DNA of 39,859 nucleotides from positions 1 to 39,859 of the forward strand of contig CAIMWN010000017.1 in the NCBI GenBank assembly GCA_903845155.1, written 5' to 3'. Below, in pieces: positions 27,693-36,827 of this stretch. Numbering within the stretch: the first letter of the stretch is position 1; the number at the start of each line of letters is the position of its first letter. Under the pieces are notes generated by a model. It was not told where the DNA came from and ran no database searches. It saw only the letters and a program-made list of their open reading frames with translations. The DNA comes from Oligoflexia bacterium. Lineage in GTDB: Bacteria; Bdellovibrionota; UBA1018; CAIMNF01. The translations under genes were made by a program, and so were the position numbers.

Positions 27693-28064
27693 ATGTATAT
27701 GTCTCTTCAAAAAAATGTTTTAGGCACGACCCTCCGCACTTGCTGCACTAAGCCTCTCACTGGCTTTTTTAGAAATGGTTTATGTGAAACGGATGAAGAA
27801 GATGTCGGTTCACATACGGTTTGCATCAAAGTAACAGATGCGTTTTTAAAGTTCTCTAAAAGTGTGGGTAATGATTTGAGTACTCCCATTCCACAGTATG
27901 GTTTCATGGGAATTAAAGATGGGGATTGCTGGTGCCTGTGCCTCTCACGTTGGAAAGAAGCCTTCGATGCTGGAGTTGCACCCAAGGTGAAACTGGAGTC
28001 TTGCCATGAATCGGCTCTGGAGTTGGTGACTTTAGATATGTTAAAGAAGTACGCAATTGAGTAA
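27693..28064 (+). CDS. DUF2237 family protein
   Basis: A 123-residue small cytoplasmic protein matching the DUF2237 pattern as I recall it: KNVLG, then CCTKPLTGFFRNGLC, an acidic DEEDVGSHTVCIKVTDAFL segment, FSKSVGNDLSTPIPQYGF and DGDCWCLCLSRWKEAF. It is cysteine-rich (CC, CWCLC), which suggests metal or redox chemistry, but the family has no established function that I know. Two start codons are possible (27693 and 27699), neither with a clear ribosome site. It lies 27 bp before the mutase gene on the same strand and may be co-transcribed with it. Confidence 0.82.
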   Translation: MYMSLQKNVLGTTLRTCCTKPLTGFFRNGLCETDEEDVGSHTVCIKVTDAFLKFSKSVGNDLSTPIPQYGFMGIKDGDCWCLCLSRWKEAFDAGVAPKVKLESCHESALELVTLDMLKKYAIE

Positions 28065-28091
28065 AGCTTTTCCTTCGTGTATGCTAGCCCC

Positions 28092-29690
28092 ATGGCACAC
28101 GACCCTAAATTACCTTTCATCACGCGCTCGGGTATCCCGGTAAAAGAAATTTATACCGCGCAGGATTTGCCAAAAAATTTAAACGAGTATTTAGGTGAGC
28201 CCGGAGCTTATCCTTTCACACGTGGCGTTCAAAAAACCATGTACCGCGGTCGTCATTGGACAATGAGACAATACGCGGGTTTTGGAACCGCCGAGGAATC
28301 GAATCAGCGGTATCATTACTTGCTTGCTCAAGGAACGATGGGCCTATCAGTTGCATTTGATTTGCCCACCCAACTTGGTCTCGACCCAGATCATGCGCGT
28401 GCAAAGGGTGAAGTAGGTAAGGTGGGTGTATCGGTTGCGACGCTTGATGAAATGAGAACGCTTTTTAAGGGCATTCCCCTCGCAAAAGTTTCTACTTCAA
28501 TGACGATCAATGCAACGGCGGCTATTCTACTTTCGTTTTACGCGGCCCTCGCTGAAGAACAAGGTGCTGACATGAAAGAGCTCAGAGGCACCGTTCAAAA
28601 TGATATTTTAAAAGAATACATTGCGCGCGGGAATTTTATTTATCCTCCGAAGGGTGGGGTCCGCCTCATTACCAATATGTTTGATTGGTGCGCGAAAAAC
28701 ACGCCGAAATGGAATCCAATCAGTATTTCGGGTTATCATATTCGTGAGGCGGGTTCGAATGCAGTACAAGAACTTGCCTTTACCTTTGCAGACGCCATTG
28801 CCTATGTGGAAGCTGCAATCAAAGCGGGTTTGGATGTAGATGCGTTTGCTGGTCAGCTTTCGTTCTTTTTTAATGTGCATAATGATTTTTTTGAAGAGAT
28901 CGCAAAATTCAGAGCCGCACGCAGAATTTGGGCCCGTATCATGAAAGAAAAATTTCATGCAAAAGATCCGCGCTCCATGATGCTTAGATTCCATTCGCAA
29001 ACCGCAGGCTCTACACTCACGGCCCAGCAACCCGAGAATAATGTGGTCAGAGTAGCGATTCAGGCACTTTCGTCAGTGCTTGGGGGTACCCAGTCTTTAC
29101 ACACCAACTCAATGGATGAAGCTTTGGCTCTTCCATCGCAATCGGCGGCACTTCTCGCGCTCCGAACACAGCAAGTGATTGCATCAGAAACGAATGTCAC
29201 TCAAACCGTGGACCCACTTGCAGGAAGTTATTTTATTGAAAACCTCACTTCCGAAGTGGAAGCCGGTGTTTGGAAGTATTTGGAAGAAATCGAACAACGT
29301 GGTGGAACCATTCAGTGCATTGAAACTGGTTATATTCAGACAGAAATTCTGAACTCTGCCTACCAAGACCAGAAACGAATCGACTCGGGCGAGCTTCAAA
29401 TTGTAGGCGTGAATTGCTACCAAGATTCAACTTCACAGAAAAAGATGGAGCTTTTACGCATTCCACCCGATCTTGAAGTTCGCGCTGTGGAGCGAATTCG
29501 CGCATACCGAGCAAAGCGCTCGCAAGGAAAAGCGAACGACGCATTGAAAGCGCTGACTGAGGGCGCGAAGGGTGATGCGAATTTAATGGGACTGGTTTAC
29601 GAAGCCGTGAAAAGCGAATGCACTTTGGGTGAAATTGCGGACACGATGAAAAAAGTATTTGGAGAGTATCAAGAATACTCGGGGTTTTAA
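28092..29690 (+). CDS. Methylmalonyl-CoA mutase large subunit, without B12-binding domain
   Basis: A 532-residue TIM-barrel subunit of a coenzyme B12-dependent mutase interconverting (R)-methylmalonyl-CoA and succinyl-CoA. Marks are [78 protein letters not shown] and [14 protein letters not shown]. Tyr61 (RQYAGF) and Arg179 (YIARGNF) match Tyr89 and Arg207 of the Propionibacterium enzyme, the pair that separates methylmalonyl- from isobutyryl-CoA mutase. The protein ends after the barrel, so the cobalamin-binding part must be a separate small subunit, not found here. I prefer ATG 28092; a GTG at 28077 is in frame, and neither has a clear ribosome site. It completes the propionyl-CoA route begun at 7.9 kb. 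Confidence 0.94.
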
Positions 29691-29692
29691 TA

Positions 29693-30130
29693 ATGCCAAG
29701 ATTACCATTTTACGCAGAGGGAATTAAGTTTGAATGTCAGGGTTCAGGCAAGTGCTGCACTTCGCGAGGCAGCTACGGCTATGTGTATCTGACCGAAGAC
29801 GATCAGAAGCGATTTGCCAAATATTTTAAAATGACGAGAGCCGCATTTCTAGAAAAGTATTGTGGTGAAAAGGATGGCCATGCCTTTTTGCTTGATCCCC
29901 GAGAGATGGGGTATACTGGTCATCCTGAGGGTGATTGTCTGTTCTTGATTGAGAATCGTTGTAGCGTTTATGAGGCTCGGCCCGAACACTGTAGGACCTG
30001 GCCGTTTTGGCCAGAAAATATGAACCCCAAAACCTGGCGGACGGAAATTGCGGCGTATTGTCCGGGCGTGGGCAAAGGGAAGCTGCATACATTTGAAGAG
30101 ATCAAAGAGATTCTCGATTCGCAGAGTTAG
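29693..30130 (+). CDS. YkgJ-family cysteine-cluster protein
   Basis: A 145-residue protein of the YkgJ/Fe-S-type zinc- or iron-chelating family. The pattern is FECQGSGKCCTSRG near residue 14, then GDCLFL with ENRCSVYEARPEHCRTWPFWPE near 80-104, and a final YCPG. The conserved cysteines suggest a metal or [4Fe-4S] site; the biochemical role of the family is not settled. It begins 2 bp after the mutase stop, so the two are almost certainly co-transcribed. It could help mature or protect an iron- or cobalamin-dependent enzyme, which is inference only. Confidence 0.88.
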   Translation: MPRLPFYAEGIKFECQGSGKCCTSRGSYGYVYLTEDDQKRFAKYFKMTRAAFLEKYCGEKDGHAFLLDPREMGYTGHPEGDCLFLIENRCSVYEARPEHCRTWPFWPENMNPKTWRTEIAAYCPGVGKGKLHTFEEIKEILDSQS

Positions 30131-30202
30131 GAAGTGAATCACTCTGGAGTTCTTGGTCTTTATTTCTTTACAATATCAGGCTATTGGGTTACTTAATCGC
30201 CC

Positions 30203-30784
30203 ATGAACACTATTACTTCTGCTCTATTTTTGGCCCTGTATTTTTGTTTTTTGAGTGCTCCACAATCAATGGCTCAGCAGGCTTTGCCTCAAGCACCCAC
30301 TTGCTATGGGGAACATCACCAAGTGCTCAGTAACAGCAACGCACGAGTGGTGTCATTGAAGCAAACCACGCAAAACTTATATAAAGAGCAGGCGTTTGTT
30401 CAAGCTCATTTGGTGAAAATGCTGGCGGTGGTGGTGAATAGTTATGGGCACCACGAGCACTTCATCGTGAGTTTGGGAGAGCCTTCATCCCCTACCTTTT
30501 TGAACAAAGAAAATTTGATCGAAATAGCCGACAGTTTGAACGATTATTCGGCTCCGAGTGCCGATGAGCTTTCAAAGGGGCCTATTTATCTTTGTGGTGA
30601 ATACAACACGGCTGATGCAGCCAAAACTCCGCAAATTCTGAACTTTTCACCATCAGTTACGGGAGCAATCATTCATTGGACTCATTTAGCCGGTCCAAAT
30701 GTGGATGGAAACTACTCACATCCAAATGGATGGGTTTATGTTAATGGTAAACTCTACGGTACCGCGCTCGGTAAACAACATTAA
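30203..30784 (+). CDS. Secreted DUF3465-like protein
   Basis: A 193-residue protein with a signal peptide (residues 1-24, ending SMAQQA). The C-terminal third resembles DUF3465 as I recall it: a GEY segment (YLCGEYNTAD), then GAIIHWTHLAGP and SHPNGWVYVNGKLYG, where the family has a GxIHWTH...HPDGW pattern. Upstream there is a strand with HEHFIVSLGE, comparable to the family's exported ligand-binding core. The function is unknown. The start ATG 30203 lacks an obvious ribosome site. A 146-bp gap with sigma-54 promoter features follows before a small peptide gene. Confidence 0.65.
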   Translation: MNTITSALFLALYFCFLSAPQSMAQQALPQAPTCYGEHHQVLSNSNARVVSLKQTTQNLYKEQAFVQAHLVKMLAVVVNSYGHHEHFIVSLGEPSSPTFLNKENLIEIADSLNDYSAPSADELSKGPIYLCGEYNTADAAKTPQILNFSPSVTGAIIHWTHLAGPNVDGNYSHPNGWVYVNGKLYGTALGKQH

Positions 30785-30821
30785 TCATGCATTTTGTCCC
30801 TAGTGGTGCAGTATCGCTTTG

Positions 30822-30833
30822 GCACTGTAGTGC
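30822..30833. promoter_or_regulatory. Palindrome upstream of the sigma-54 promoter, possible activator site
   Basis: GCACT-GT-AGTGC, perfect 5-nt arms, 39 bp upstream of the -24/-12 promoter. Related TAGTGGTGCAGT text lies about 20 bp further up. The spacing from the promoter is short but plausible for an enhancer-binding protein site. Its short length makes chance occurrence quite possible. Confidence 0.3.
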
Positions 30834-30871
30834 ACTTTAACTTCTCTCACTCTGTTTTAATCACGTTCACG

Positions 30872-30889
30872 TTGGCACGTGTATTGCTT
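30872..30889 (+). promoter_or_regulatory. Sigma-54 (-24/-12) promoter
   Basis: TTGGCACG, four bases, TTGCTT: this matches the consensus TGGCACG-N4-TTGCW, with exactly 10 nt between the GG (30874-30875) and the GC (30886-30887). Transcription would start near 30899, about 30 nt before a small open reading frame that has a good ribosome site. It is the best promoter by eye in the window, although upstream activator binding is required by this class and the activator is not known. Confidence 0.85.
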
Positions 30890-30930
30890 TTACTTAAAAT
30901 GTATTAAGCAACGATAGAAACGCGGGGGAA

Positions 30931-31011
30931 ATGGCGATGACATTACAAAAACTTTATATACTGATGATTCTACTTCTTAGTTTGTTACAGCTCAATTCGA
31001 TGAATGCGTGA
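30931..31011 (+). CDS. Small hydrophobic peptide (26 residues) under the sigma-54 promoter
   Basis: A start codon follows a strong ribosome site (GGGGGAA just upstream). The peptide begins MAMTLQKLYILM and continues with a Leu-rich core, then QLNSMNA and TGA. It looks like an isolated signal peptide or a single membrane-spanning peptide: one Lys near the start, a hydrophobic middle, and a small-residue end. It could be a membrane micro-protein, a secreted signal fragment, a leader peptide for the gene at 31122, or the relic of a larger exported protein cut short at its cleavage site. A short hairpin with a T-run follows directly. It is too short for homology-based recognition. Confidence 0.55.
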   Translation: MAMTLQKLYILMILLLSLLQLNSMNA

Positions 31012-31012
31012 T

Positions 31013-31033
31013 TCACCTTTAGTGAGCTTTTTT
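31013..31033 (+). terminator. Weak candidate terminator after the small peptide gene
   Basis: TCAC and GTGA arms with a 5-nt loop, then GC and six Ts, starting 2 nt after the peptide stop codon. The stem is only 4-5 bp, so termination may be partial. If real, it makes a stand-alone transcript of roughly 135 nt from the sigma-54 promoter. Confidence 0.35.
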
Positions 31034-31065
31034 GTGCACCAAGTCACGCTCAGACGAGTTGAATC

Positions 31066-31092
31066 TTGCTTGCAGATCAGTTTCCATATGAT
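31066..31092 (+). promoter_or_regulatory. Candidate sigma-70 promoter for the secreted protease
   Basis: TTGCTT (31066-31071) and TATGAT (31087-31092) lie 15 nt apart, shorter than ideal, 30 bp before the protease start. The -10 box is close to consensus; the -35 is fair. The protease might therefore be transcribed independently of the sigma-54 promoter. Confidence 0.3.
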
Positions 31093-31121
31093 ACGCCTAT
31101 AAAAACGCGTACTTTGGAGAA

Positions 31122-32234
31122 ATGATGATCAGACCACTTATTCTAGCGATGTTGTTTTGCTCGGCGCCGAGTTTTGCATTTTATGCAACTGATGAAGGTC
31201 AGTGTACAAACGTAGATTTAAGGACTCAGTTCCCGATGAAAATGCGGGATCAAGGCAAGATTAGTTGGTGTTATGCACATTCGTCGGCTGATTATCTCCA
31301 ATATTATTTTAAAATTCCAGAGCAAATTTCGGCAGCAGATATCGCGATTATTTATAATTCTCGCTGGTTTCCAACCCTTTTGAACCGAATCAAGGGGGGC
31401 TATGTGCCAGAAACAGGTTTCGCGAAGGTTTCAATGAGGGATGGATTAGAGCATGGCTATTGTGCTGAAGATGCATTTCCTTCAAATGAATGGAATAAAG
31501 TTCAACGGGCTACTTCGGCTCAAACGGAGAGCACTCAATTGGTGCAAATTGAAGTTGCACTCAATGATCTCAAGAGTCTCCAAGATAATATGAACAAGGG
31601 GTTTTTTAAGTCAGCTTCTGATCTTCCTTACTTTTTTAAATTTAAAAATATCAACCGCGAGAAGTTTTTCTCCATTCTCTCTCGTTTTCCTTCATCTGAT
31701 ATGGGGAATGATTTCTTGGACGCTATTCGTGTTGCTGCCTGCGATGGAAATAGAAAACCCTATCCAGGAAGAATTGATCATATCACCATGCGAGTGAAGG
31801 GGGCCCATACTTTTAAGCGCTTTGGGAAGATGTTCGCTCAGAACACGCCGGTAAGTGTTGATTTTTTTTATGGGGTTCTCGAGAATTTAGATCATTATAA
31901 GGTCTCCTTGTCGGAGCTTCATACGACGATCCTATTGGGTAGACGATTTGATCCAGTCACTCATGAGTGTCAGTACTTAATGAAAAATAGTTATGGACCA
32001 AACTGCGACAATGAAGATCGCACTCGCCGTTATGATTCCCGCATCGCTTGTGACCAAGGTTATTTGTGGGTACCTGAAGGCGCTCTTTATGGCGCAATGA
32101 CGAGTTATGTTTACATCAAAGATGTGCTCGCAGATGATACAGACGGAAATTTCAGATCAGCAGAAGAAGTAATGGTCGAAAGTTCGTCTGCTGATGTCGC
32201 TCAAGATGATGAAGGTCAAAACTCGGAAGAGTGA
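31122..32234 (+). CDS. Secreted papain-like (C1) cysteine protease
   Basis: A 370-residue exported protein. A signal peptide (residues 1-19, ending SFA) is followed by a short acidic segment. The catalytic sites fit the papain fold: the oxyanion Gln45 and nucleophile Cys50 in DQGKISWCYAHSSADY (papain GSCWAFS region), His267 in ELHTTILLG and Asn289 in YLMKNSYG (papain LIKNSWG). Additional cysteines could form disulfides. There is no long propeptide, since the Gln-Cys block begins about 25 residues after cleavage, which is unusual for papain-type enzymes. The C-terminal ~35 residues are acidic and Ser-rich. Two adjacent ATGs (31122 and 31125) follow TTGGAGA; the second has better spacing. The likely role is breakdown of external or prey protein; the substrate is unknown. 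Confidence 0.8.
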   Translation: MMIRPLILAMLFCSAPSFAFYATDEGQCTNVDLRTQFPMKMRDQGKISWCYAHSSADYLQYYFKIPEQISAADIAIIYNSRWFPTLLNRIKGGYVPETGFAKVSMRDGLEHGYCAEDAFPSNEWNKVQRATSAQTESTQLVQIEVALNDLKSLQDNMNKGFFKSASDLPYFFKFKNINREKFFSILSRFPSSDMGNDFLDAIRVAACDGNRKPYPGRIDHITMRVKGAHTFKRFGKMFAQNTPVSVDFFYGVLENLDHYKVSLSELHTTILLGRRFDPVTHECQYLMKNSYGPNCDNEDRTRRYDSRIACDQGYLWVPEGALYGAMTSYVYIKDVLADDTDGNFRSAEEVMVESSSADVAQDDEGQNSEE

Positions 32235-32410
32235 GATCTTTTTTTCACGAAGAGATATTAAATTGATCTCATTTAAATATGATCATTCGACTCTCGATTT
32301 GGGCTAATATGTCCCCGTGTTTTTTTGTATGAACTACTTTAGGTAATATTGTCCCACCGCTTTTGCTCGCACAACTCATTGAGTTTACAAGGGAATTTTA
32401 AAAAGAGTTC

Positions 32411-32439
32411 TTGATTAATACACTTCCATTGTGTAACAT
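32411..32439 (+). promoter_or_regulatory. Candidate sigma-70 promoter for the cytochrome-porin gene
   Basis: TTGATT (32411-32416) and TAACAT (32434-32439) are separated by 17 nt and lie about 68 bp upstream of the ATG at 32507. Nothing else supportable was seen in the 272-bp gap from 32235. Confidence 0.4.
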
Positions 32440-32506
32440 TCGCACAAAGGAAATCGTTCAATGGATTTGGGGAATCAACCTCACCACTTTAAAACGGTAG
32501 TTCATT

Positions 32507-33874
32507 ATGATTAAGAATAAATCTCTCACTCTCGCCCTCGGACTGGTCACAGTATCGACAGCTTTTTTACAAATGCCATCGGCAAAGGCGACTCCCGCAT
32601 ATGCAAAACAAACTGGCTTAAGTTGTGTTGCTTGCCATAATGGTGTTTTCCCTCAGCTGACCGATTTTGGGAGAACGTTCAAGTTGAATGGATACACACT
32701 TGTGAACATGCCCACTATTAATGATGGTGGAAAGCCACCGGCTGGTGACACCACCACTCCTACCACTCCAGTTTTAAAACTTCTTGCTTCATCATCATTG
32801 GGTGGAATGGTTCAGACTTCATATACTCATGAGAATAAAACTGAGCCTGGAACCAAAAACGGCAACGTAGAGTTTCCTCAACAATTAAGTTTGTTTTATG
32901 CGGGTCAAATTGCGCCACATATTGGAGCATTTATTCAAATGACCTATAGTCAAGCATCGGGTGGAATCGGAATGGATAATACTGATCTCCGTTATGCAAA
33001 TACGACGACTATCGGCAAGAAGACTTTAAATTACGGAATTACCGTTAATAATAATCCAGGCGTAGAAGATCTTTGGAACTCCACTCCGGCTTGGGGTTAT
33101 CCCTATGCAAGTTCAAGCTATGCTCCGACCCCTGCGGCAAAAACAATGCTGCAAGGCGGTTTAGCACAGCAAGTTGCGGGTGCGGGTGCATACGGTCTTT
33201 TTAATAACCTGATTTACGGTGACATCACCACTTATACTTCAGCACAACAAGGGCACGGAAATCCTCCAGGTGCTACTTCTACTATGGTCATCAAGGGCGT
33301 AGCGCCTTATGCTCGCGTGGCTTTACAGCATAAATGGAAGAGTAGTTATTTAGAAATTGGAACGACTGCAATGCAAGCGAAAATCTATCCGGCTGGAGTG
33401 AGTGGTCCAACCGACAATTTTACCGACATTGGTGTTGATACTCAGTATGAATATTATCTTCCAAGGGCGAGTGTTACTGTTCATATGAATTTGATCAACG
33501 AGAAACAACAGTTGGATGCCTCTAACGCTTCAGGTGCTGCTGCAAATCCTGTGGACAAATTAACTGCATTTAATGCAAATGCTGAGATTATGTTCAAAAG
33601 TGGACTAAGTGCAACATTAGGTTGTTTCAAGACAGACGGCACTTCAGATGCGAATTTGTATACTCCGGCCGCAATCAGCGGCAGTGCAGTGAACTCTCCA
33701 AATAGTAGCGGTGTATCAGGAGAGCTTGCTTATCTATTGAATAAAAACGTGAACGTATCTTTGAACTATGTTTATTACAGCAAGTTCAATGGTGCAAAAA
33801 CCAACTATGATGGCAATGGACGCAATGCTACTGACAACAACACAGCTTACGTGTGTGTTTGGGTAGCGTTCTAA
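32507..33874 (+). CDS. Monoheme cytochrome c fused to an outer membrane porin-like barrel
   Basis: A 455-residue exported protein. After a signal peptide (to about residue 28) comes ATPAYAKQTGLSCVACH, with one c-type heme motif Cys40-x-x-Cys43-His44, then FPQLTDFGRTFKLNGYTL. The remaining ~370 residues are Gly/Asn/Thr/Tyr-rich alternating strands such as QQLSLFYAGQIAPHIGAFIQM and GELAYLLNKNVNVSLNYVYY, ending in Phe, as in an outer membrane barrel. This order, a short monoheme domain then a barrel, and the FP-L-FGR-FK-GY pattern resemble the Cyc2-type fused cytochrome-porins used by Fe(II) oxidisers, but also less studied relatives. Electron transfer across the outer membrane is a fair guess, iron oxidation only one option. 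A strong terminator follows. Confidence 0.82.
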   Translation: MIKNKSLTLALGLVTVSTAFLQMPSAKATPAYAKQTGLSCVACHNGVFPQLTDFGRTFKLNGYTLVNMPTINDGGKPPAGDTTTPTTPVLKLLASSSLGGMVQTSYTHENKTEPGTKNGNVEFPQQLSLFYAGQIAPHIGAFIQMTYSQASGGIGMDNTDLRYANTTTIGKKTLNYGITVNNNPGVEDLWNSTPAWGYPYASSSYAPTPAAKTMLQGGLAQQVAGAGAYGLFNNLIYGDITTYTSAQQGHGNPPGATSTMVIKGVAPYARVALQHKWKSSYLEIGTTAMQAKIYPAGVSGPTDNFTDIGVDTQYEYYLPRASVTVHMNLINEKQQLDASNASGAAANPVDKLTAFNANAEIMFKSGLSATLGCFKTDGTSDANLYTPAAISGSAVNSPNSSGVSGELAYLLNKNVNVSLNYVYYSKFNGAKTNYDGNGRNATDNNTAYVCVWVAF

Positions 33875-33904
33875 AACAACGATTGTAAAAGTACTCTAAA
33901 AATA

Positions 33905-33945
33905 AAAAGGCTGGAATTCAATTTGAATTCCAGCCTTTTGTTTTT
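33905..33945. terminator. Strong intrinsic terminator between convergent cytochrome genes
   Basis: 17-nt arms (AAAAGGCTGGAATTCAA and its exact complement) form a near-continuous hairpin, followed by GTTTTT. It lies 30 nt after the cytochrome-porin stop and 24 nt before the stop of the convergent triheme cytochrome. The A-run at one side and T-runs at the other suit both directions. Confidence 0.92.
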
Positions 33946-33968
33946 GCAGGTGTGTGAGTTCAGGTGGT

Positions 33969-35633
33969 TTACTGAGGTGCGCCCTCGCTAATCCAATCTC
34001 CCACCATTTTACGTTCAATGGGAGTCATTCCAGTCATGTTTCCTGGAGGCATCGTTTGATCTTGAACGACACGTTTGTTGATGGTGTCTTTTTTACTAAA
34101 TGCTACTGAATAGTCCATCCAATTTGGAATGGGGCTAGATGAGTTGTGGCACATAAAGCAGCGAGTTTGAAAAATTTGGCTCACGTCTTTAGTATAAGTC
34201 AGTCCCGCAGGGGCTGGATTAGGGTTTGGGCTAGGCGCTGGTGTGGAGCTTGGAGTTGCAGTTGGTACCGGCGTAGGAGCGGGGAGTCCGCCGAATGGCA
34301 CATTTTCAATCACCCAGGCAGCAAATACTTGCCGTTCTGCATCTGTCATTTTTGTTGCGTTATTATTAGGTGGCATGACTTTAGATTGCACCACCCAATC
34401 AAATATTTTTGGTTTGAGCGCCGCTGCTTTTTTGTAATTAGTTAAGTCAGGAATAGGGAAACCTGCTTGAGCATTATGGCAGGCGATACAGCGAGTGTTT
34501 AAGATCGGAGTAATATCTCTAGTAAAAGAAACTTGCAGGTAACCCGCAAGCGATTGTTGTATTTGAGAGTTATTTTTGATGAGTGAATATGCAGTAGTTC
34601 CTTTGGGTGAAAGAACATTACTGTAGTTGGCAATAGTGCTGGTGCTTGCATTTCCTGCAAGCAAGAGTTTGGTCAGGTCAAAGTCATTTGCATTCACTGC
34701 AAGCATCAAGGCACTGTAGCCCGCGACGTTTCTCAATTCGTTTCGAGTTGAAAACCCGATGACTTGATTGAGGTCCGCTCCTGCATTTACGAAGAGACTT
34801 GGAGCGCTGGGAATTCCTCTCGCGATAGACCAGAGCAGTACATTTGCGCCGTCACTGGTTTCATTTATAACTTGAGCAGCGCCGTGATTCAATAAGTCTT
34901 GAATGATGGATGAAGTGGCTGGCCTTGTTGCATCCAAATCCATGGCTGCGATGAGGAGTGCGGTGCGGCCATCATTGTTTTTTGCATTTCCACAGGCATT
35001 TTGTGCGAGTAAATTCGCAACGCCGGTGTCGTCCCCTTGAGTAACACTTGCGATCAGCTTACTGTTCAAACTATCAATGCAAGCGGCTGGCGTTGAGTTG
35101 GGGGTAGGTGCTGGAGTTCCGCCAGTGCTCGGCGGTGTGGTAGGCGGAGTAGTGGTGGTTCCGCCAGAAGTAGGTGGTGTCGTTGGAGTTTCTCCAGTGG
35201 TGGGAGGGGTGCTTGGAGCTATAGTTGGATTTGGGTTTGGAGTTCCTGGGGTATTGTTTCCCTCAACTGCACCCGCTTGAATCCATTGTCCGATCATGTT
35301 TCTTTCTTGATCAGTGATTAAAGTATTGAATGGAGCCATCGGCATGCTTCGATCAACTGTAACTTTTTGAAGAATCATGCTTCTCTTCGCATACGCCTCA
35401 CTATAATTAAGCCAGTTTCCACGGCTGCTTCCGGGGCCGTGGCAAGCGGCGCAGTTTTTCTGAAAAATAGGCTGAATGTTAGCTAGGTAACTGATCGTTG
35501 TCGATGACGTTGATGTTCGTGCTGAGCTGTTGGCCCCAGATGAGCTCATGGGAATCGGCATGTGCAGATTGTTTCCACCGCAGTTGGAAATAAGGAACGA
35601 TAGGCCTACAACGAAAATAGTTTCATACTTCAT
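33969..35633 (-). CDS. Triheme c-type cytochrome with embedded ankyrin-like region
   Basis: A 554-residue exported protein. The N-terminus is a signal peptide; LISNCGGN near Cys18 resembles a lipobox, although Asn at -1 is not typical. Three heme motifs occur: CAACH at 61-65, CIACH around 380 and CFMCH around 485. Each is followed by a Met-Pro segment of a shared ~80-residue domain (MPMAPFN, MPPNNNA, MPPGNMT), the Met being a plausible axial ligand. Between the first and second hemes lies a Thr/Pro/Gly-rich linker, then about 170 residues of ankyrin-like repeats: DGRTALLIAAMD, DGANVLLWSIARG, GYSALMLAVNANDFDLTKLLLAGNAS. A second Pro-rich linker precedes heme three. I chose ATG 35633; a TTG at 35654 precedes the signal. 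The electron partners are unknown. Confidence 0.83.
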   Translation of the reverse strand: MKYETIFVVGLSFLISNCGGNNLHMPIPMSSSGANSSARTSTSSTTISYLANIQPIFQKNCAACHGPGSSRGNWLNYSEAYAKRSMILQKVTVDRSMPMAPFNTLITDQERNMIGQWIQAGAVEGNNTPGTPNPNPTIAPSTPPTTGETPTTPPTSGGTTTTPPTTPPSTGGTPAPTPNSTPAACIDSLNSKLIASVTQGDDTGVANLLAQNACGNAKNNDGRTALLIAAMDLDATRPATSSIIQDLLNHGAAQVINETSDGANVLLWSIARGIPSAPSLFVNAGADLNQVIGFSTRNELRNVAGYSALMLAVNANDFDLTKLLLAGNASTSTIANYSNVLSPKGTTAYSLIKNNSQIQQSLAGYLQVSFTRDITPILNTRCIACHNAQAGFPIPDLTNYKKAAALKPKIFDWVVQSKVMPPNNNATKMTDAERQVFAAWVIENVPFGGLPAPTPVPTATPSSTPAPSPNPNPAPAGLTYTKDVSQIFQTRCFMCHNSSSPIPNWMDYSVAFSKKDTINKRVVQDQTMPPGNMTGMTPIERKMVGDWISEGAPQ

Positions 35634-35738: not shown

Positions 35739-36827
35739 CTATCGTCCGGGACGCGTTATATTCGTTTCCAGAAATTCCAAGTGATCAGGATGTCCGATGA
35801 TTTGATAACGGGTTTGAATGGAAATTTCATTTTTTGCCAATTTCAAATTCTTTCTCACCTTCCTGATACGGTCGATGGAGGTCTCGAGCGCCAGGGGATT
35901 GAGTCTCTTATCGACGAGTGCTTTTTTAATTGCTTCGATTGCGATTTTTGCATGAACTTCCGACCGATAGCATAATAGGTCACAGCCCGCCTCTAAGGCA
36001 AGAATGGGCGCTTCCTCAGCCCCATAGTTTTTCGTTATTGCATGCATCTCCATGTCGTCGCTCACGACGACTCCTTGAAACATGAGTTCTTCACGCAAAT
36101 ACTTCTTCATAAAAGTCGAAGAAAGAGTTCCGGGCCTGTCCGGATCCAAATGGGGAAGCATGATGTGAGCACTCATTACAAAATTACATCCAGATTTTAG
36201 TGCGCGTTGGAATGGAATCCATTCACGTTTTCGAAGTGTTTCAAGAGGAGTGGTCACTACGGGAAGATCAAAATGCGAATCGACTTGGGTATCTCCATGA
36301 CCCGGAAAATGTTTAATACAAGGTTCAACATGTTCGGTGAGGTGGCCTCGGACCGAAGCTGACACCATCCGAGTCACCACCTCTTCGGTGCTTCCATAGG
36401 CTCGGTCGCCAATCACGGGATTGTTTGGATTAGTATTGATGTCGCAGACGGGTGCGAAGTTCAATTGAATTCCGGCCGCAAATAGTTCCTTTGCCTGAAT
36501 CTGCGCTAGGTCAAACAAGACGCTCGGAGAATTGAGGTCCGCTATGACTTTGGCTGCAGGGAGCGGGGTGAATCCTTTTCTGAACCGCATGACTCTTCCG
36601 CCTTCTTGATCGGCAGAAATCATTACCGGAAAATTCTGATTGGAGCAAAAACTTTGAATCTCGTCAGTCAGTGCAATGAGTTGTTCTTTAGATTCATAGT
36701 TGTGGGCAAAGAGAATAAATTGACTCGATTTTTCAGCTTGAATGGTCTGAATGGTCTCTGCAGATAATGAATGCCCACTGAAACCCATGATCACTAATTC
36801 ACTTACTGAGTAGTCGCTTCTTAACAT
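35739..36827 (-). CDS. nagZ: Beta-N-acetylhexosaminidase (family GH3)
   Basis: A 362-residue family 3 glycosidase that removes N-acetylglucosamine from anhydro-muropeptides during cell wall recycling. It has the NagZ signature KHFPGHGDTQVDSHFDLP at about 172-189, with the His and Asp of the flexible catalytic loop, SADQEGGRVMRF near 71 and the nucleophile Asp257 in VVSDDMEM. There is no signal peptide, so it is cytoplasmic. It starts 9 bp after the preceding permease gene, so it shares its operon. The permease neighbours suggest it acts on imported wall fragments. The weak ribosome site may be offset by coupling to the permease. Confidence 0.94.
   Translation of the reverse strand: MLRSDYSVSELVIMGFSGHSLSAETIQTIQAEKSSQFILFAHNYESKEQLIALTDEIQSFCSNQNFPVMISADQEGGRVMRFRKGFTPLPAAKVIADLNSPSVLFDLAQIQAKELFAAGIQLNFAPVCDINTNPNNPVIGDRAYGSTEEVVTRMVSASVRGHLTEHVEPCIKHFPGHGDTQVDSHFDLPVVTTPLETLRKREWIPFQRALKSGCNFVMSAHIMLPHLDPDRPGTLSSTFMKKYLREELMFQGVVVSDDMEMHAITKNYGAEEAPILALEAGCDLLCYRSEVHAKIAIEAIKKALVDKRLNPLALETSIDRIRKVRKNLKLAKNEISIQTRYQIIGHPDHLEFLETNITRPGR

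Follow-up and report, generated by a model that had tools for sequence, protein, structure and literature searches.

Comparative evidence for a conserved sigma-54-driven micro-gene encoding a putative single-span membrane peptide in a genus of uncultured Bdellovibrionales

The 39,859-nt stretch analyzed here (contig CAIMWN010000017.1 of assembly GCA_903845155.1; hereafter the window) belongs to a Bdellovibrionales MAG of 4.29 Mb in 337 contigs (G000). The locus of interest is bounded by two syntenic anchors, a methylmalonyl-CoA mutase gene on the left (28077–29690, + strand) and a convergent beta-N-acetylhexosaminidase (NagZ) gene on the right (35739–36827, − strand). Between them lie a candidate micro-gene with its own sigma-54 promoter and, downstream, a gene encoding a papain-like secreted protease-like protein (31122–32234, + strand). 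The 193-aa protein encoded at 30203–30784 is predicted to be secreted; it matches no Pfam family, and the syntenic region of the other eleven genomes of the genus contains no relative of it.

The promoter of the micro-gene is a −24/−12 (sigma-54) element, TTGGCACGTGTATTGCT, at 30872–30888 on the + strand. Its GG (30874–30875) and GC (30886–30887) are separated by ten nucleotides, as the original prediction had stated, and it matches the TGGCAC…TTGC consensus. It is the sole match without mismatches to TGGCACG-N4-TTGCW in the window, and matches with up to two mismatches are at chance level (six observed vs. 6.1 expected). Across the whole window genome, TGGCAC-N5-TTGCW has 18 sites, compared with two for a reversed control. 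Across the genus, TGGCAY-N5-TTGCT with an ATG after it is far more frequent than its reversed control, and RpoN is encoded in all 12 genomes (Sigma54_DBD, 7e-66). In a survey of sigma-54 sites of the genus, the first frame reached from 100 of 119 sites has 70 aa or more, as expected of working promoters. The exceptions include the micro-gene in the window, its relatives, and a conserved non-coding unit described below. Transcription from sigma-54 promoters starts about 12 nt past the −12 element, and by this spacing rule the predicted start is at 30899 (+ strand). A sigma-70-like TTGGCA-17-TAAAAT overlaps the sigma-54 promoter in the window; it was rejected as an alternative promoter because the sequences of the relatives have no such −10 element, whereas the −24/−12 element is kept in all seven copies of the micro-gene.

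A ribosome-binding site, GGGGGAA (30924–30930, + strand), and a hydrophobic micro-ORF follow at the positions first proposed for them, and in all seven copies the ATG has a Shine-Dalgarno (SD)-like sequence ahead of it. The frame from the first ATG (30931–31011) has 26 codons, ends in TGA, and encodes MAMTLQKLYILMILLLSLLQLNSMNA. Only 1 nt separates GGGGGA from this ATG, whereas the second ATG of the frame, at 30937, follows it at 7 nt. The second start is therefore favored, and a product of 24 aa, MTLQKLYILMILLLSLLQLNSMNA (30937–31011, + strand), is more likely than one of 26 aa. Thus, the originally described frame and stop codon stand, but its start is probably 30937 rather than 30931. The micro-peptides of the relatives also have cores of 25–26 aa. 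Among 387 ATG frames of 20–50 aa in the window, ten reach a 15-residue hydropathy mean of at least 2.15; none of the 37 SD-preceded frames does so, although the SD filter did not count the micro-ORF itself. Acidic residues are absent from the cores of the seven copies, which carry a basic residue close to the N-terminus and reach a best 15-residue Kyte-Doolittle mean of 1.98–2.66. The micro-peptides have the size of small single-span membrane proteins (under about 50 aa, with a single hydrophobic stretch of some 15–20 aa). Searches of Pfam and NCBIfam with the micro-peptides returned only noise and no family match. At the 3′ end, a terminator-like stem, AGCTCA…TGAGCT (30989–31028), plus a T6 run extends to 31033 on the + strand and overlaps the end of the ORF. 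The TCAC/GTGA hairpin of the original prediction has 4 bp; AGCTCA…TGAGCT is the better stem. The structure is weak (−9.5 kcal/mol, z −1.4) and not conserved, with a similar 3′ stem found only in G011 among the relatives.

Seven copies of the micro-gene were found in six of the twelve congeneric genomes (G000, G002, G003 with two copies, G004, G008, and G011), each with its own −24/−12 promoter 40–64 nt upstream. In G002, G004, G008, and G011, such a promoter lies upstream of orthologues of the protease gene and is followed 41–46 nt later by a hydrophobic frame of 25 to 48 codons. A profile of five copies found the sixth on contig 275 of G003 (G003a; E 0.18), which has TGGCATGTCGATTGC 45 nt upstream and occupies the same syntenic place, where the protease gene is missing. 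A profile of six copies found the seventh on contig 243 of G003 (G003b; E 0.005), with the promoter TGGCACAAGCTTTGC 40 nt upstream. Each G003 copy was detected by a profile built without it, and the promoter played no part in the search. Among 369 genomes of the phylum, there were no strong profile matches outside the genus, and the weak out-of-genus matches that were checked have no −24/−12 element upstream. On these sequence comparisons, the micro-protein family appears genus-restricted and new relative to the libraries searched, although its kind, small membrane proteins, is already known. A literature search found no paper on sigma-54 micro-proteins in Bdellovibrio.

Six of the seven copies are at one site, in the order methylmalonyl-CoA mutase, papain-like protease (where present), and NagZ. 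The mutase and NagZ genes are anchors in all twelve genomes, with the mutase match of G008 being outside the stretch examined. At this locus, the micro-gene is beside nagZ in six genomes and ahead of the protease gene in five of them. G007 and G010 keep the protease gene and have no micro-gene, and G001, G005, G006, and G009 have neither. The NagZ tree requires at least three gain/loss changes of the micro-gene, a pattern that is compatible with one old gain followed by losses. Half of the genus is without the micro-gene, and it is therefore dispensable.

Differences among the closer copies are concentrated at the third codon position. For codon positions 1/2/3, there are 5/5/16 differences between G002 and G008, 9/1/13 between G002 and G011, and 12/4/16 between G008 and G011. 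Pairs among these three genomes have pN of 0.15–0.33 vs. pS of 0.75–0.77, and pairs within G003/G004/G000 have pN of 0.34–0.44 vs. pS of 0.69–0.98. For close pairs in both groups, column shuffles gave p = 0.0005–0.018. Between G002 and G011, 19 of 24 residues are identical in the coding frame, compared with 10 and 7 in the other frames. The window copy is too diverged from the MALA-type copies (G002, G008, and G011) for a pairwise selection test (p 0.09–0.89). Taken together, the codon-position and dN/dS patterns show purifying selection on the micro-ORF. In this comparison among relatives, a check suggested with the original prediction, the frame does not drift freely. A chance ORF or a relic is ruled out by the purifying selection together with the synteny, and the relic of a secreted gene that had been offered as one possibility is not borne out by a frame under such selection in seven copies. 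The central claim of a sigma-54-driven micro-gene for a hydrophobic, signal-peptide-like or membrane peptide is instead supported. That the unit is a real, conserved, and unannotated protein-coding micro-gene is well supported by the genomic data, and in our judgement it is likely to exist as a translated gene.

The papain-like protease is linked to the micro-gene in five of six genomes, and a papain-like protease gene is next to six of the seven micro-gene copies. Residues Q44, C50, H267, and N289 (window numbering) are kept in all six aligned members, a conservation of Q, C, H, and N that resembles papain-like enzymes. The family has no match in Pfam, NCBIfam, or PDB sequences; it has homologues in 12 genomes, with eight matches in the window genome. 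The window has 110 nt between the micro-ORF stop and the protease start, and four other genomes have 46–51 nt. No sigma-70-like promoter was found in between; co-transcription of the two genes is therefore plausible. G003b adjoins, divergently, another papain-like protease gene, whose product is 20% identical to that of the window (E 2e-8). G003 has about six papain-like protease genes, and the chance of such an adjacency is estimated at about half a percent (about 12 neighbor slots and about 2,600 genes). At the locus, five of the twelve genomes have both genes, one has only the micro-gene, two have only the protease gene, and four have neither; numbers this small cannot by themselves prove a functional link. 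A near-consensus sigma-54 site, TGGTATGTTGATTGC, stands 28 nt ahead of a further papain-like gene in G004 (L287; C71, position 729), a hint that more genes of this kind may be under sigma-54 control.

Upstream of the promoter, a palindrome, GCACTGTAGTGC (30822–30833), lies 51 bp from the −24 element and is a candidate site for the activator (enhancer-binding protein). Palindromes of the form GCAC-N2/N4-GTGC are found 51–82 bp upstream of three micro-gene copies (G000, G003a, and G003b); the G004 copy has an imperfect one, CACCAGTG, and those of G002, G008, and G011 have none. Of 69 sigma-54 promoters, 6 have the pattern GCAC[CT]N0-2[AG]GTGC upstream, compared with 0 of 69 downstream stretches and 0.1 in shuffles, in a test that is partly post hoc because the palindrome was first noticed by reading the sequences and then counted. 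As a semi-independent check, an order-wide search for GCACYGGTGC 50–110 nt before TGGC-N7-TTGC found five places in the genus and none for the reversed control; the only two such places in G003 are its two micro-genes. A general search for k-mer motifs ahead of the seven copies found nothing above shuffles and no motif common to all seven. Besides the three micro-gene copies, the pattern precedes lpxC in G007 and, in G004, both a lipoprotein gene and a different micro-ORF, and the lpxC promoter of G000 has GCACAAAAGTGC; the names lpxC and lipoprotein were assigned by reading translated sequences rather than by family search. Genes resembling lpxC are directly behind a consensus sigma-54 promoter in G000 (L045; C232), G007 (L099; C8), and G008 (L102; C3), and in two of these genomes a GCAC-N4-GTGC palindrome stands near −135. 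If true, control of lipid A synthesis by sigma-54 would be of note.

These features may be combined into a mechanism. Sigma-54 RNA polymerase would sit at the −24/−12 promoter until started by an enhancer-binding protein, whose probable site is the GCAC-N2/N4-GTGC palindrome 50–100 bp upstream. The short mRNA would then be translated from GGGGGAA into a hydrophobic peptide of 24–26 residues, which is expected to span the inner membrane as a single helix and, as a small membrane protein, to modulate a partner. As a guess, this partner would most likely belong to envelope biogenesis, or to the export or activity of the neighboring papain-like secreted protease, because most copies adjoin the protease gene and the palindrome is common with sigma-54 lpxC promoters. 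The micro-protein would thus probably be a regulator of the envelope or of the protease. A single-span inner-membrane micro-protein seems the simplest reading, and we regard an enhancer-activated form of it, with a suggested role as a membrane regulator, as reasonably probable.

Small single-span inner-membrane proteins are known in bacteria, e.g., YohP, KdpF, MgtS, and PmrR of E. coli. The micro-protein resembles them in its length of about 24–31 residues, one hydrophobic stretch, few charges, and its own ribosome site. Unlike them, it is sigma-54-controlled, genus-restricted, and without a Pfam or NCBIfam match. Control of envelope or 'bacterial exterior' functions by sigma-54 has been proposed (PMC3162934), and this proposal fits the palindrome common to the micro-genes and lpxC. 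The likeness to that regulon includes the −24/−12 promoter, and sigma-54 sites of the genus precede lpxC and lipoprotein genes; however, the products of the regulon are full-size proteins, whereas that of the micro-gene has 24 aa.

Among the alternatives, the best rival to the membrane micro-protein is a precursor of a secreted peptide, in which a signal peptide would be cleaved at A-x-A to release a short mature peptide, the mature part having been lost from the window copy. G003a (KAAHA|N), G003b (KRASA|D), and G004 (KLVHA|S) do have a signal-peptide-like segment followed by 20–22 polar residues, and in the window copy the peptide stops precisely at SMNA, where cleavage would occur. However, it is the hydrophobic segment rather than the tail that is conserved, and an A-x-A-like end is present in four of seven copies and a tail in three, with the tails not clearly conserved. 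Moreover, G002, G008, and G011, for which selection is clear, have neither A-x-A nor a tail, and the G003a tail overlaps the convergent 3′ end of nagZ. A secreted-peptide origin is thus considered unlikely. The size and hydrophobicity of the micro-peptide would also suit a type I toxin of the Ibs/Ldr/TisB/TimP kind held down by an antisense or trans RNA. TimP provides a precedent, showing that small membrane-targeted toxins exist (PMC7667032), and the micro-peptide is likewise small, hydrophobic, and of a predicted inner-membrane type. Against this, no antisense or regulatory RNA gene was found in a search for cis-antisense promoters, which gave weak, unconserved 9/12 matches in G000 and G004 only. 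The micro-gene is also mostly a single syntenic copy under sigma-54 control, and the Pfam and NCBIfam searches gave no match to a known toxin family. The toxin reading is quite improbable.

The position of the micro-ORF on the protease strand, at the short distances given above and with no sigma-70-like promoter between, would suit a translated leader that controls the protease by attenuation or translational coupling. In five genomes it is a short ORF preceding a gene, as are the leader peptides of attenuated operons. Unlike them, it has copies without the downstream gene, a conserved peptide, and no conserved attenuator (terminator/antiterminator) fold. Both G003 copies have only convergent genes behind them (nagZ for G003a and the contig 243 neighbor for G003b); with no same-strand gene downstream, a pure leader role is therefore excluded there. 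In addition, G007 and G010 keep the protease gene without the micro-ORF, and selection at the amino-acid level counts against a leader. Leadership of the protease gene at 31122, raised in the original prediction, is thus not borne out as the main role and is very improbable. A sigma-54-driven small RNA with a chance ORF would match the shortness of the unit, and candidates for conserved non-coding RNAs driven by sigma-54 do exist in the genus. However, conservation is in codons rather than in RNA, as the frame-specific identity of G002 and G011 shows, the fold of 30899–31035 is no better than shuffles (z +1.27), and an Rfam search of 28000–34000 found no structured RNA and one chance match only. 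This last explanation is barely credible.

Because such peptides are associated with lpxC and with secreted proteases, an envelope role of the membrane micro-protein can be put to a direct test. Annotation usually omits genes of 24 codons, for which independent evidence is seldom available. A sigma-54 promoter requires an activator, so conservation of promoter and frame together separates true micro-genes from noise. The same route also found a second family (family B), and sigma-54 promoters could thus help to locate membrane micro-proteins across the Bdellovibrionota, a poorly studied phylum that includes predators.

The micro-ORFs of family B, hydrophobic and sigma-54-driven, lie between the genes for a second methylmalonyl-CoA mutase and its B12-binding subunit. 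The G004 member (L089; C1:63257) is MGELLLFLLLLPLAQALLQKFRGD and has a strong terminator (−19.7 kcal/mol). In the same place, G010 (L316; C10) has MSAALLLIVVLPFVQILIQRLRRQ… behind the promoter TGGCCTGAACCTTGC, and nine of 24 residues are common to the two without gaps (shuffle p 0.003). A similar frame on contig 239 of the window genome (L315) is broken at a T6 run and lies behind TGGCACTTTTATTGC with a longer leader. A regulon of sigma-54 and an enhancer-binding protein, comprising at least two families of membrane peptides of about 24 residues, having the palindrome in common with lpxC, and tuning the envelope, is a tentative and rather doubtful possibility. About 60–125 nt past the L315 promoter, the family B 5′ region of the window genome contains a long inverted repeat, AATATCTGCACAGG…CCTGTGCAGATATT.

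The conserved unit without a long frame consists of a −24/−12 promoter followed at a nearly fixed distance by GGCACRAGNNGCTGGAAGG…CTTATGGAG. It has no Rfam match and is apparently non-coding, making it a candidate new small RNA. The unit is present at L086, L090, L091, L100, L175, and L233 (G003, G008, G006, G001, G011, and G002, respectively), and also at G009:C43.
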